Source: Portulaca oleracea (taxonomy: Eukaryota; Streptophyta; Magnoliopsida; Caryophyllales; Portulacaceae). Taken from it: 64,000 nt of DNA. Where the stretch lies: positions 16,479,891 through 16,543,890 of the forward strand of contig CM055868.1 in assembly GCA_029582165.1 (NCBI GenBank), read 5' to 3'. The translations under genes and the position numbers were made by a program. Under the pieces are notes generated by a model. It did not search any database, had not been told where the DNA came from, and was given only the letters and a program-made list of their open reading frames with translations. Of the stretch, positions 28,480-56,409 are shown piece by piece. Each line of letters begins with the position of its first letter. Position 1 is the stretch's first letter.

Positions 28480-30139
28480 TGTTTAGTCCCATTTTAGGGG
28501 CTAAATACCACTCGTTTACGCCCAAGTCTATTGCCGTTCCCTAATAAAATGGTTATTTATTACGTGTTTTGTGATTTTTAGGTATTAAGTTCGGAGAATA
28601 ATAAAAGGGGGCAAAGTTGCGGAAAAAGGCGATAACTCGGTCATCCCGAGACCTTTGGAGCCGATTTGATGCCGTGGTGAAGACCCGGGAAGCAAGGGAG
28701 ACCAGCCGTGCGTAAAGGAGAGGGATTTCGGGCCAAAAGGCTAAGTATGGGGGCATCCAGGCTCGTAGCGTTCGCTACAACAGCTGTAGCGATCGCTACG
28801 CCCCCATACTTAGATGGAGATCACTTGAAGAGCGTAGCGGTCGCTACGCCTATTGTAGCGATCGTTACGAGCCCAGAAGGTTACGCCCAGCGCCGAGCGG
28901 TCGCTACCCCATTCATAGCGCCCGCTACGATGAAGCCCTGATTTTCCAAGTTTTCCTGCTGACGGTCGTAGCGTTCGCTGCGGATGATTGACTGGGTCGC
29001 GACGCTGGGCATAGCGGACGCCTTGGAGCTGAAATGATTCGCCTGCTTTGGATCGTAACGAACGCTACGATGTCCGTAGCGTTTGCGACGACCTTATTTC
29101 CTGCATAATTTTCGACCAAAACGACCGTGTTCTGGTCTTCTTCCCCTTTGTTTTAATTAGGCCGACTTGTCACTTTCAAAGAGAGTTTTTGCTGGAGCTT
29201 TATTTTCTTTCCCTTTACATCTTCTATCTTTCAAGAGTTTTAGGATTAGCTTTTGGGGGGATTAACTTCTACTTTGTTGATTAATTACTTTCTTCAATCA
29301 AGGCCAATTGCTCTTCATCATTTGGGTATTATTGCTCTTCATTTATTGCCAATTTATTGCTCATCCATTTAGGTATAATCTCTTTTCTCCTCATTTTAAT
29401 GTTTCCAAATGCTTTGTTGCTTGTGTTAAGTGTAGTTTTATGTTGTTAATCATAGTGGTTAGTTTTAATATCCATCCTTTGAGTAGAACCATGCTAGGGT
29501 TTTATTGGTTGTGTGTTGCTAATTTCTCCACCATGTCTAGAGGCTAATCTTCCTTGAGGTGAGGGGGTGATTAAGGCCTTAATGGGTTTTGGCTAAGGTG
29601 TTTATTGATTAAAGTGTGTTTTAGTTGGAGGAGTCTATTTCACTTGGTGTCTTCTCATTGGGGTGGCGGTTCAAGGTCCGAGAGCTCTTTGAATCGTTAT
29701 ACACTCAATGGGAAGCCTAGAGGATAGTTAGGTCTACGCTTACGAGGGTAAGTGTAGGCTTAACTAGGAATTAACGCAATTCTCAACCCCGATGGTCCAT
29801 GGTGGACATAGGGTAGTTAATTTGAATCTTCCTCGAGGGAGGAGATTCATCGTGGCCCCTTTCCCGCGTTGTTCCATGGATAAATCCAACTTTATGCGCT
29901 TTAGTCATGAAAACTCCTTGATCAAAGATTCCGTTAAGTGTCTAAAACCCCCGAACCTCTCTTTGTCTAATTATCACCTAGTTAATCATCTTTCTAGTTT
30001 TAATTTTGTCATAATCAAAGTGATCTTTGCTCCGTAATTTATTTCTTGATTCAAGGCTAAAACCGAAACAAAATACGAGAATTTAGGCCACAGGCTCCCT
30101 GAGTTCGACAATTTACACCGGCCTGCAAATCGCTGTACA
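28480..30139 (+). repeat. Solo LTR of an Athila-like Gypsy family, inside the Copia RT/RNase H junction
   Basis: The 1660-bp insert begins TGTTTAGTCCCATTTT and ends CGCTGTACA, flanked by ACTAT (28475-28479, 30140-30144). Removing it and one ACTAT restores the Copia codons for ATIHVLRYLKG. Its first about 660 bp and the block at about 29515-29950 are closely similar to the 3' LTR at 46521-48235. It carries the palindrome array at 28765-29089 and a TATA-like TTTTAATTAG at 29151. With no internal region it is a solo LTR left by recombination between two LTRs. Confidence 0.93.
28765..29089 (+). repeat. Palindrome array, consensus GTAGCG-NN-CGCTAC, in LTR U3
   Basis: About ten irregularly spaced 14-bp units: 28765, 28786, 28834, 28855, 28895, 28915, 28968, 29011, 29055, 29076. 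The first three are perfect 6-2-6 palindromes with centre dinucleotides TT, AT and GT; the others carry one to three mismatches, several being C-to-T or G-to-A at CG sites. The array starts 285 bp from the LTR start and ends about 61 bp before a TATA-like box. Confidence 0.9.
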
Positions 30140-30144
30140 ACTAT

Positions 30145-30613
30145 ACATGTTTTGAGATATCTCAAAGGCTCAGTGAATAAAGGCCTATTTTATTCATCCT
30201 CTTCTTATCTTCAGCTCACAATATATTGTGATGCTGACTGGGGCACTTGTAGGATGACAGCCAGATCATTCACTGTCTACTGCATCTTTTTGGGTTCTTC
30301 TTTGATTTCTTGGAAAACAAAGAAACAAAAAACTGTATAGGGCTATGTCCTATACAACATCTGAACTTGAGTGGCTTCAACAATTATTGCAGGAGCTAGG
30401 GGTGAATATTTCATTACCAGTATCTCTTCATTGTGACAATAAAGCAGCTATGTATATCGCAGAGAATCCTGTGTTTCATGATAGAACAAAACATCTGAGG
30501 ATCAATTGTCATTACACTCAAGACAAGCTACTGGAAGGTTTTCTAGCCACCTCCTATGTCTCTTCTCACAATCAGATTGCAGACATTATGACTAAACCCT
30601 TGGGCGAGACATA
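30145..30613 (+). pseudogene. Copia RNase H, 3' end of pol
   Basis: After the solo LTR the pol frame resumes with HVLRYLKGSVNKGLFY. It continues through the RNase H block IYCDADWG to SWKTKKQKTV, where a stop (about 30340) and an apparent short deletion remove the usual SRSSAEAEYRA block. The end is recognisable: ELEWLQQLLQELGV, LHCDNKAAMYIAENPVFHDR, KHLRINCHYTQDKL and ADIMTKPLGE. Confidence 0.9.
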
Positions 30614-30669
30614 ACATAATTGCCTTTCTTCAAGGATGAATTTGTTGGACAATCCACCAAATCCACCTT

Positions 30670-30864
30670 GAGGGGGGATGTGAAGTATAGATAAGCATTC
30701 AAGAATTAGTTACTGTTTAGTTGGTTTGTTATTTCCCTCTCTTTCTTGTTATGTGCAGCTGCTGTATGTGTATAAGTATCCCTCCTTGGGACTCTTGCAA
30801 AATCAATATATGAGATACACAAATTTCTCTCTAAATCTCCAACTCTTTTCTTTCACATTTCACA
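30670..30864 (+). repeat. Polypurine tract and 3' LTR of the Copia element
   Basis: GAGGGGGGA (30670-30678) is the plus-strand primer. It abuts the 186-bp 3' LTR (30679-30864), which ends TTTCACA. The target duplication GTTAT follows at 30865-30869. Confidence 0.93.
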
Positions 30865-30869
30865 GTTAT

Positions 30870-54530: not shown

Positions 54531-54920
54531 GTAGCGCCCGCCACCCCAGCGAAGAAAGCCAACGTACAAAGTAAAATCTCCGCGTCACTGGCGACACAAC
54601 CCAAGGTAGTAGGGGTGGAAACAGTGCGGTGTGGTGCGGTTTCGGTGTCTCGAAGCGGTGCACCGGACGAAACGGTGTGCTAAAACCTTAAACCGGAACC
54701 GGAACCAAATCACCCAGTTTTTAAAAACCGGTGCACCAAATTTAACGGTGCGGTTTCACCGGTGAACCGGAACCGTATTAATTTCTATCAACATAAAAAA
54801 ATCTCTATTCAATAAAGGGTCTGGGCTGTCCAATGCCCGCCCACTACCCACTGGTTCAGTGGCCTATGCCCAATGCCCAATGCCCAGTGCGCTAAAAATC
54901 TCTATTCAACCAAAATTTAC

Positions 54921-54951
54921 ATATATATATATATATATATATATATATATA
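54921..54951. repeat. (AT)n microsatellite
   Basis: Fifteen AT units directly before the foldback element at 54952. Confidence 0.95.
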
Positions 54952-55855
54952 GGATCCAGTAGGAAGAAAGATACGGTAGGAAGGTAGGAAGAAATAATCT
55001 GGGGCGTACAAATCTAATCCGATGACTGATAATAAAACCACTTTCCTTCCCCATAAATCAACTAGTGGTTTTCGGAAAAAATAAAATAAAATAATTTAGG
55101 TAGATATGATTAGCTAGAATCATGCATGGGGTTAGAGAGAGAAAGATTTATTTCCCTAAATTATAGGGATCGAGTTATCCAAATTAAATTCAATTATTAT
55201 CAAAAACTAAAAATAAAAAACAAAAGTTAACGTTTTATAAGGATTTTATCATGGGTATGTTTCGTCCAACATCGTCGTTTCTTCTCACATTTCATGACCA
55301 CACTCCGTAATATTCATGACCACACTATCATAAATCAAAATTATATCAAGGACCACACTCCCATTATACATGACCACACCTCCCTAAATCAAATTATATC
55401 TTAATTGTCGCATTATATGGAAGACCACAGTCCTTAATATCCATGACCACATCTCCCTAAATCAAATTATATCTTGATAACATTGATATAATTTTGACAT
55501 AAATGGAGTGTGGTCATAGATATTAGGGAGTGTGGTCATAGATATTAAAGAGTGTGGTCATGGAGTGTGAGAAACAACTATTATGTTAGACTAAATACAA
55601 TCCCTACAATTTTGATAACTTTTTTTTTTTGGTTTTTTTATAATAAAAGAGTTAAATTAGGATGATTTAATTCCTACAATTTAAGGAAGGAAATCTCTCT
55701 CTTTACCTAATTGATTTTATTTATTTTTTTTCGAAAACCACTAGCTGATTTATTAGGAAGGAAGGTGGTTTTTATTATCAACCATTGGATTAGATTTGTA
55801 CGCTCCATATCGTTTCTTCCTATCTTCCTATCGTATTTTTCTTCCTACCGGATCC
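54952..55855. mobile_element. Foldback element lodged in (AT)n DNA (Micron-like)
   Basis: It starts GGATCCAGTAGGAAGAAAGA and ends CTTCCTACCGGATCC. The inverted arms are about 100 bp and include GTACAAATCTAATCC on the left and GGATTAGATTTGTAC on the right. The interior has many ATGACCACAC words on the left half (55298-55448) and GTGTGGTCAT on the right half (55509-55562). It is bounded by AT repeats on the left and, after ATTCCC, on the right. This placement resembles rice Micron elements known to lie in (TA)n; identity with them is not claimed. Confidence 0.7.
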
Positions 55856-55861
55856 ATTCCC

Positions 55862-55967
55862 TATATATATATATATATATATATATATATATATATATAT
55901 ATATATATATATATATATATATATATATATATATATATATATATATATATATATATATATATATATT
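55862..55967. repeat. (TA)n microsatellite, about 105 bp
   Basis: Uninterrupted TA dinucleotides. Open frames reading poly(Tyr-Ile) on either strand here are artefacts. Confidence 0.95.
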
Positions 55968-56409
55968 AACGGTTCGGTGTCGGTTCCCCGTCGGTTTAAA
56001 TATCCCAAACCGGAACCGCCCCGTTTAGCATCCGGATTTTCCGGTGCGGTGCACCGGAATTTTAAGTCGGTTTGGTGTTGCCCGTTTCCGTTTTTTATCC
56101 GGTTTCCGGTTTCCGGTTCGGTGTGCCGGCTCCGGATTTTTCTTCCACCCCTACAGGGTAGCACCCATAATGACCCTGCTTCCCGCAAAAAAAAAAAAAA
56201 TAAAACGACTATATTTTATGTAATTTTTCCTTGATGTATATATACTCTCTCCTTAATTAAACCTAGCAGTTTTTATTATCTTTTAGTCTTCCCCTTTTTA
56301 GTAGTTCCTAAGTTCAAGCACATTTCTCTAGATAGATACTTTTTCCGTTTTCTCTCAAAACACTATTGTATTCATTTTAAAGAAGATTAATGCAAGCAGA
56401 AGATTATTA

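Follow-up and report, generated by a model that had tools for sequence, protein, structure and literature searches.

The palindrome arrays described here lie in long terminal repeats (LTRs) assigned to Athila-type Ty3/gypsy retrotransposons, in a 64,000-nucleotide stretch of the Portulaca oleracea genome (assembly GCA_029582165.1, contig CM055868.1, positions 16,479,891 to 16,543,890 of the forward strand; hereafter the window). In families A, B and E and in their relatives, the units are 14-bp palindromes composed of two 6-bp half-sites around a 2-bp centre (6-2-6), and they are mostly paired, with their starts 21 bp apart. The geometry of the pairs, their genome-wide recurrence, the divergence of their linkers and the difference in half-site type between families and between homologous promoters are direct observations. 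The best explanation, to which we give a probability of roughly 0.55, is that these would be cis-regulatory arrays read by paired dimers, and the combination of a fixed spacing with letters that vary by family suggests a double-dimer switch protein of changeable specificity. An earlier reading of the window made from its letters (the sequence-only reading), which the present analysis followed up, missed both the pairing at 21 bp in these three families and a second array in the B element.

Palindrome pairs at a 21-bp spacing

Two 14-bp units and the 7-bp linker between them place four half-sites within 35 bp, and such pairs often recur every 73-78 bp within an array (Table 1). Exact 6-2-6 dyads outnumber those of dinucleotide shuffles in the two family A LTRs (A1 and A2), in the family B LTR and in the second, linker array of the B element (p 0.001-0.003); block C (p 0.12) and E (p 1.0), taken alone, do not reach such an excess (500-base LTR parts; 401 bases for the B linker and 501 for C). 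The GTCGCG-NN-CGCGAC units that had been read in block C are present at 38935-39020, the nearest units of this block being 20 and 16 bp apart, not 21. A generic dyad search of 364 kb (at least four like 5-bp dyads within 450 bp) gave 13 rows, 12 of which fall in these arrays.

The spacing was also examined with a motif-free scan of the window and 100 kb on each side (264 kb, including 2,500 bases N), in which, for every spacing from 14 to 44 bp, sets of four half-sites were accepted if a single 6-mer matched them with no more than four mismatches. At 21 bp 32 clusters were found, a few of them by chance and outside the arrays, against 0-8 (mean 4.7) at the other 30 spacings. The scan exposed further half-site types, namely GACTCG and TGCTCG/GGCTCG. 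It also bears on LTR E, for which a separate TTACCC..GGGTAGC type had been claimed: a worn 6-2-6 pair (54362-54396, 21 bp) supplies the linker and the inner half-sites that were read as this type, and a distinct TTACCC palindrome class was dropped because the scan and the unit map both show this pair. Five 20-kb blocks from other contigs (C2-C6) yielded 19 clusters at 21 bp versus a mean of 2.4 at the other spacings; arrays on three of these blocks hold 16 of them (13 on C6), the remaining 3 falling outside arrays. When 87 units in 12 arrays were placed at random (5000 runs), neighbours at 21 bp averaged 2.1 and never exceeded 7, versus 28 observed; this test was run without F2, C6_3, E and block C, and also without two odd units in LTR I and one of the two C4 units that overlap.

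Searched for exact unit pairs with a gap of 5-35 bp between units, the whole genome (1.13 Gb, 63 contigs) gave 1129 matches for GTAGCG, 1626 for ACCGTG, 621 for GACTCG, 426 for GTCGCG and 3589 for KGCTCG (7,391 in sum), which are not independent events because the matches are copies of repeats. Reversed-pattern controls gave 0 matches genome-wide for each of the five half-site types. Among the first 50 matches listed for each type, the spacing is 21 bp in 31 (GTAGCG), 41 (ACCGTG), 42 (GACTCG), 39 (GTCGCG) and 44 (KGCTCG, counted by eye); the other spacings among the matches listed are mostly 19, 20, 22 and 42-45 bp, with 30-32, 38, 39, 48 and 49 bp also found.

Placement before the LTR promoter and before ORF3

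TGTTTAG heads were found at 28480, 46521, 36623 (minus strand) and 54043, as the sequence-only reading had it. A regex list and BLAST served to pick the heads in 364 kb, so that diverged heads may escape, and 11 of the 12 head-bearing LTRs found carry an array (E weakly, with 2 strict units). The sole exception among the 12 is the LTR headed at 40370 on the plus strand, which runs from 40370 to 41230. This LTR has a TGTTCGG head and CT-rich sequence in place of the array.

With offsets counted from 0 and strict units, the first unit lies 258-294 from TGTTTAG heads, except in E (319), and at 177, 194, 291 and 292 in relatives headed by TGTTCGG or TGTTCGA. The cluster starts given earlier for A (285/286) and B (269) stand, and this comparison across heads rules out an offset that is fixed in the literal sense. 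TATA-like boxes, called by regex after the array, follow the last unit by 63 bp in A2, 64 bp in B, 66 bp in H and 75 bp in F1, F2 and C4 (six LTRs, F1 and F2 being near-copies at 91%), in keeping with the earlier distances for A2 and B. The observed/expected ratio of CpG is 0.89-1.61 in nine arrays, versus 0.59 regionally.

A separate observation concerns the first ~25-28 nt of the LTRs, which form an inverted repeat whose arms vary by family with the pairing kept (TTTAG/CTAAA, TTCGG/CCGAA), one position varying as T-G, A-T, G-C or G-T. The heads examined were those at 28480, 46521, 54043 and 40370 (plus), that at 36623 (minus) and seven others in the 364 kb. Against 300 mononucleotide shuffles, at most 3 folded as well in 9 of the 12 heads, the weaker ones being the C6 5' LTR (7/300), the 40370 head (11/300) and F1 (45/300). 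The repeat may be an RNA stem-loop at the terminus or may be connected with integrase.

Palindromes also occur away from the LTRs, in a layout of integrase, array and a third open reading frame (ORF3) that recurs in three elements. In B, the ACCGTG array lies between the integrase fragment and ORF3. A broken element on the C6 contig has integrase, an ACCGTG array (11951-12215) and then ORFs that include an ATHILA-type one (PF03078 ATHILA, 24.7 bits, cut-off 20.2; PF20167, 34.4 bits, under the cut-off of 45). In the L002/L003 element, a GTCGCG/GTAGCG array lies between integrase and an ORF3-like ORF that is 55% identical to B ORF3 over 179 residues and has no Pfam match. LTR and linker arrays share a motif in B and likewise in the C6 element. 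On the way from the linker array of B to ORF3, the interval 33150-32880 (minus) resembles, by eye, a leader in which a GT..AG intron immediately precedes the ATG. An ORF3 message that is spliced and starts from an internal promoter would fit this arrangement.

The C6 element follows the gypsy order, with ORFs for gag (PF03732), protease, RNase H and integrase, the ORFs of the reverse transcriptase region lying outside the scan; L002/L003 has RVT_1 and RNase H followed by an integrase zinc finger just under the cut-off. The elements of the window are partial, with gag in A2 and an integrase fragment in B. On these domains in gypsy order, and on the 3' ATHILA-type ORF after integrase, the array carriers are classified as Athila-type Ty3/gypsy elements. 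First-look candidates for PF20167 number 2544 genome-wide, and all of the 150 that were scored matched. A search of a large protein set for ORF3 homologues returned 88 candidates, none at E <= 0.001, and the sequence comparison of ORF3 with the PDB gave one match at E 0.49.

Other features of the window include a ~1-kb inverted repeat (54915-55898, 68%) with AT microsatellites inside the insertion that interrupts LTR E. The A1 LTR appears to be nested in a copia element at 24321-30864 (RVT_2, PF07727; 187-bp flanking repeats, 97% identical), and an ORF at 57767-58342 (minus) encodes a DNA-transposon-type protein (PF04827 Plant_tran, E 8.4e-42).

Table 1. Palindrome arrays, TATA-like boxes and associated features in the window (positions from its first letter)
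Feature	Position	Strand	Remarks
A1 array, family A LTR	28765..29089	+	9 units GTAGCG-NN-CGCTAC (<=2 mismatches), 4 pairs at 21 bp
A2 array, family A LTR	46807..47190	+	8 units GTAGCG-NN-CGCTAC (<=2 mismatches), 3 pairs at 21 bp
A2 TATA-like box TTTAAATA	47254..47261	+	63 bp past last A2 unit
B array, family B LTR	36033..36354	-	8 units ACCGTG-NN-CACGGT (<=2 mismatches), pairs at 21-22 bp
B box TATATATT	35961..35968	-	64 bp past last B unit
B second (linker) array	33430..33696	-	ACCGTG motif as in LTR, 4 pairs at 21 bp, pair-to-pair 77-78 bp; interval between integrase fragment and ORF3
B integrase fragment	34328..35029	-	PF00665
B ORF3, candidate trans factor	32173..32949	-	weak PF20167, 24.9 bits (cut-off 45)
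Block C array	38935..39020	-	3 GTCGCG-NN-CGCGAC units (<=1 mismatch), steps 20 and 52 bp
Block C box TATAAATA	38858..38865	-	by-eye reading
E worn array, family E LTR	54312..54544	+	clearest pair 54362-54396, 21 bp
LTR E insertion	~54606-56158		interrupts LTR; ends by eye
A1 LTR head inverted repeat, 28 nt	28480..28507	+	similar heads at 46521, 36623 (-), 54043, 40370

What is conserved, and what may read it

Conservation and compensation were assessed on 38 of 46 pairs, after eight homologous duplicates had been dropped (five from the C6 3' LTR, three from the second F copy); the relatives A1/A2 and B/C6 were kept, so the pairs are not fully independent. When only pairs of the same array and the same half-site type are compared (32 comparisons), half-sites are 84% identical, a figure raised partly by the pair-picking procedure, while the inner five linker bases are 32% identical and the 20-bp flanks 28% and 31%, low values that are not so affected and that compare with 27% for a shuffled flank. 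That half-sites are shared, and linkers and flanks are not, argues against the ordinary tandem duplications that the sequence-only reading had named as its possible undoing. Between related promoters, the half-site letters differ and the spacing stays. The C2 and C4 LTRs are 62% identical over 1189 bp, yet carry GGCTCG and GACTCG half-sites, respectively; block C (GTCGCG) and an LTR at -58.7 kb (TGCTCG) are 82-86% alike from the TATA box onward. The C6 LTR resembles that of B before and after the array start, where ~190 bp with extra GTAGCG pairs are found, so that it has GTAGCG and ACCGTG pairs and B has ACCGTG alone. A 54-bp stretch that includes one array pair is 80% alike in the C2 block (13310-13363) and in L005 (-58.77 to -58.71 kb), otherwise different LTRs, a hint that modules may move between families.

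A functionless origin, in which neutral or biased turnover (tandem duplication, gene conversion or replication slippage) builds the arrays, would account for the variation of unit number and spacing among relatives and for the weak alignment, in B and C6, between linker and LTR arrays (59-86%, in stretches of 37-298 bp). We disfavour it as highly improbable: pairs of one array share half-sites and spacing only, and in several LTR families the arrays again precede a TATA box and ORF3. Recognition as RNA, with the modules acting as hairpins in the 3' LTR of genomic RNA for packaging, RNA processing or as a source of small RNA, has a better claim. The argument that a 2-nt centre is too tight for a hairpin fails, since it is the pair of units that folds, with a stem of ~14-15 bp and a 5-nt loop (3 nt in E); the folding energies of the six pairs tested all lie between -16.7 and -25.8 kcal/mol, with z from -4.4 to -6.5. 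The E pair has lost the symmetry of its own units and keeps its pair-level complementarity through G-U, and a small-RNA excess is described for palindromic LTR regions of maize Sireviruses (Bousios 2016, as far as it is reported in PMC10760457).

Because the pairs do fold, the RNA alternative must be judged by compensation rather than by the 2-nt centre. Centre bases are not significantly complementary (15/38 versus 12.2 expected, p 0.16; 19/38 versus 14.5, p 0.06), and complementarity beyond chance is absent at L2-L6 and L3-L5 of the linker and at the second and third outer bases (38 pairs). The base just outside the half-site is complementary (L1-L7, 21/38 versus 11.4; outer, 24/38 versus 13.0; p 0.0008 each) and also symmetrical at the level of the unit (18/38 versus 11.7 and 19/38 versus 12.3, p 0.02), as would be expected if the half-site comprised seven bases. 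Deviations within half-sites are uncompensated, with two joint changes at h1-h4 (both to the same letter) versus 1.7 expected and four at h2-h3 (none to the same letter) versus 3.2. A hairpin, moreover, needs no palindrome within each unit. The hairpin was rejected on the compensation test, and we hold the RNA explanation to be improbable, less so than turnover. Half-sites that are kept where linkers and flanks are not, the lack of compensation and the differences between related promoters support instead the DNA-level dimer site with a family-specific motif that the sequence-only reading had proposed, and a paired-dimer site acting at the level of DNA is, in our judgement, likely.

If so, the functional site would be the 35-bp module of two 6-2-6 palindromes with starts 21 bp apart. 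Two turns of B-DNA span 21 bp; the four half-sites of a pair would therefore lie on one helix face, and the simplest reader would be a dimer of dimers or two cooperating dimers. The positions of the arrays, ahead of the TATA box and of ORF3, suggest that two Pol II promoters are controlled, through activation, anti-silencing or both: a sequence-specific protein bound to the arrays would switch on the LTR promoter and an internal promoter of ORF3, or relieve their silencing. We consider such a promoter or anti-silencing role moderately likely. The specificity of the binder would shift between families, its quaternary geometry staying the same.

The binder may be the host's or the element's own, and we see even odds for the latter. 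Host transcription factors could bind the arrays as an ordinary enhancer, which is the assumption made for the palindromic repeats of Sireviruses, each family having captured the sites of different factors. The available passages of Bousios et al. (PMC2829016) match Sirevirus palindromes mainly to stress-factor sites, the A2 element keeps its array with no ORF3 seen, and the arrays look modular, as in the two pair types of the C6 LTR versus the single one of B. The ACCGTG, GTAGCG and KGCTCG types, however, share one unusual geometry (6-2-6 and 21 bp), which is not what one would expect of unrelated host factors, and the host explanation appears to us possible but on balance unlikely. The candidate element-encoded binder is an Athila nuclear protein, ORF3 (PF20167/PF03078), which would act in trans also on the relative in which gag but neither pol nor ORF3 was seen. 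Three points make ORF3 the leading candidate: motifs vary by family, an array precedes this gene, and a PF20167 ORF (aORF) of sunflower Athila has a predicted nuclear localisation signal in the available text of PMC11728184. In its fullest form, the proposal is a self-recognition circuit of anti-silencing that would be convergent with VANC and Sirevirus systems. An ORF3-candidate dimer of dimers, rapidly re-specified, would read the palindromes of its own family, those of the LTR as well as those at its own gene, with the 21 bp frozen, the half-site swapped and families insulated from one another; this version is speculative, and we hold it to be rather unlikely.

Several observations weigh against the proposal of paired-dimer arrays, among them the RNA folding and the behaviour of the E pair given above. 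Unpaired cases occur (steps of 16, 18-20 and 22 bp, and singletons), and although a periodogram of the modules peaks at 10.5 bp, helical phasing beyond the 21-bp pair does not significantly exceed that of jittered pairs (p 0.06; 0.06-0.23 without homologues; A2, F2, C6_3 and E were left aside, and of the two overlapping C4 units only one was used), so that long-range 10.5-bp phasing is not claimed. Placement is less regular than had been read: past the array, no TATA regex match was found in A1, C2 and both C6 LTRs, and the 57 bp earlier given for E was not reproduced, strict units placing its box at 139 bp. High CpG is not confined to arrays, some upstream flanks reaching 1.07, 1.23 and 1.26. 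The five half-site types do not amount to five independent specificities, since GTAGCG and GTCGCG are one letter apart and mixed within arrays, and GACTCG and GTCGCG are mixed in the F array. The match between LTR and linker motifs counts as about one observation because B and C6 are relatives. As regards ORF3, the ORFs scanned in the A2 element, which carries an array, include gag but neither pol nor ORF3; an AlphaFold model (four rows) was discarded at a mean pLDDT of 33; and the available literature passages on PF20167 contain no DNA-binding fold or activity.

Relation to known systems

By analogy, the closest published architecture found is that of the palindromic repeats termed RM in Sireviruses, followed by the VANC/VANDAL system; the sequence-only reading had named VANC as the nearest, which is fair for mechanism. 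The available passages of PMC2829016 describe RMs as CpG-rich, family-specific repeats in Ty1/copia elements, found from 200-400 bp into the LTR and shortly before the TATA box, with extra copies upstream of an ENV-like gene; 12 of 13 have a CGG-CCG core, centre lengths vary, and RM is termed Sirevirus-specific, being absent from that paper's classic Ty1/copia set. The Portulaca palindromes likewise lie upstream of the LTR TATA box (63-75 bp in six LTRs, 139 bp in E), and extra arrays precede the 3' ORF in B, C6 and L002, ORF3 being counted here by its position and not as ENV-like. They differ in that the half-sites GTAGCG, GTCGCG, GACTCG, KGCTCG and ACCGTG lack the CGG-CCG core, in that the carriers have Ty3/gypsy domains and an ATHILA ORF, and in the paired 21-bp geometry, of which the passages of PMC2829016 contain none. 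In maize Sireviruses (Bousios et al. 2016, as far as reported in PMC10760457), palindrome clusters of the LTR cis-region are also able to form RNA hairpins, whereas compensation tests were negative in the Athila arrays.

If the proposal is correct, Sireviruses and Athila, two unrelated lineages, have converged on family-specific palindrome arrays before the LTR promoter and before a 3' extra gene. A fixed geometry with exchangeable letters would provide a natural series of specificity swaps, and its thousands of copies in one genome allow one to ask what reads the arrays and whether Athila ORF3 does, a question that bears on how selfish elements alter regulatory code while escaping silencing. 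A literature search on Athila palindromes and related terms, for which subscription papers were mostly out of reach, found no title on such arrays, and paired 21-bp palindrome arrays in Athila are provisionally regarded as new.

VANDALs are DNA transposons. In the available passages of PMC5735166 and PMC10398659, the motifs associated with VANC form short family-specific arrays in non-coding regions and differ between related elements, and their coevolution with the element-encoded protein is proposed; the motifs are non-palindromic, lie in one orientation and have spread by tandem repeats. The arrays described here are similar in being family-specific and built of short motifs, no VANC homologue being shown, and dissimilar in having dyad units whose linkers and flanks are not repeated. 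A further parallel is offered by MADS proteins, whose tetramers in plants bind two phased CArG boxes. The putative Athila reader would resemble them as a dimer of dimers on two sites of one helix face, and would differ from them in its motif and in its stricter spacing, MADS tetramers being host developmental factors that tolerate looser spacing.

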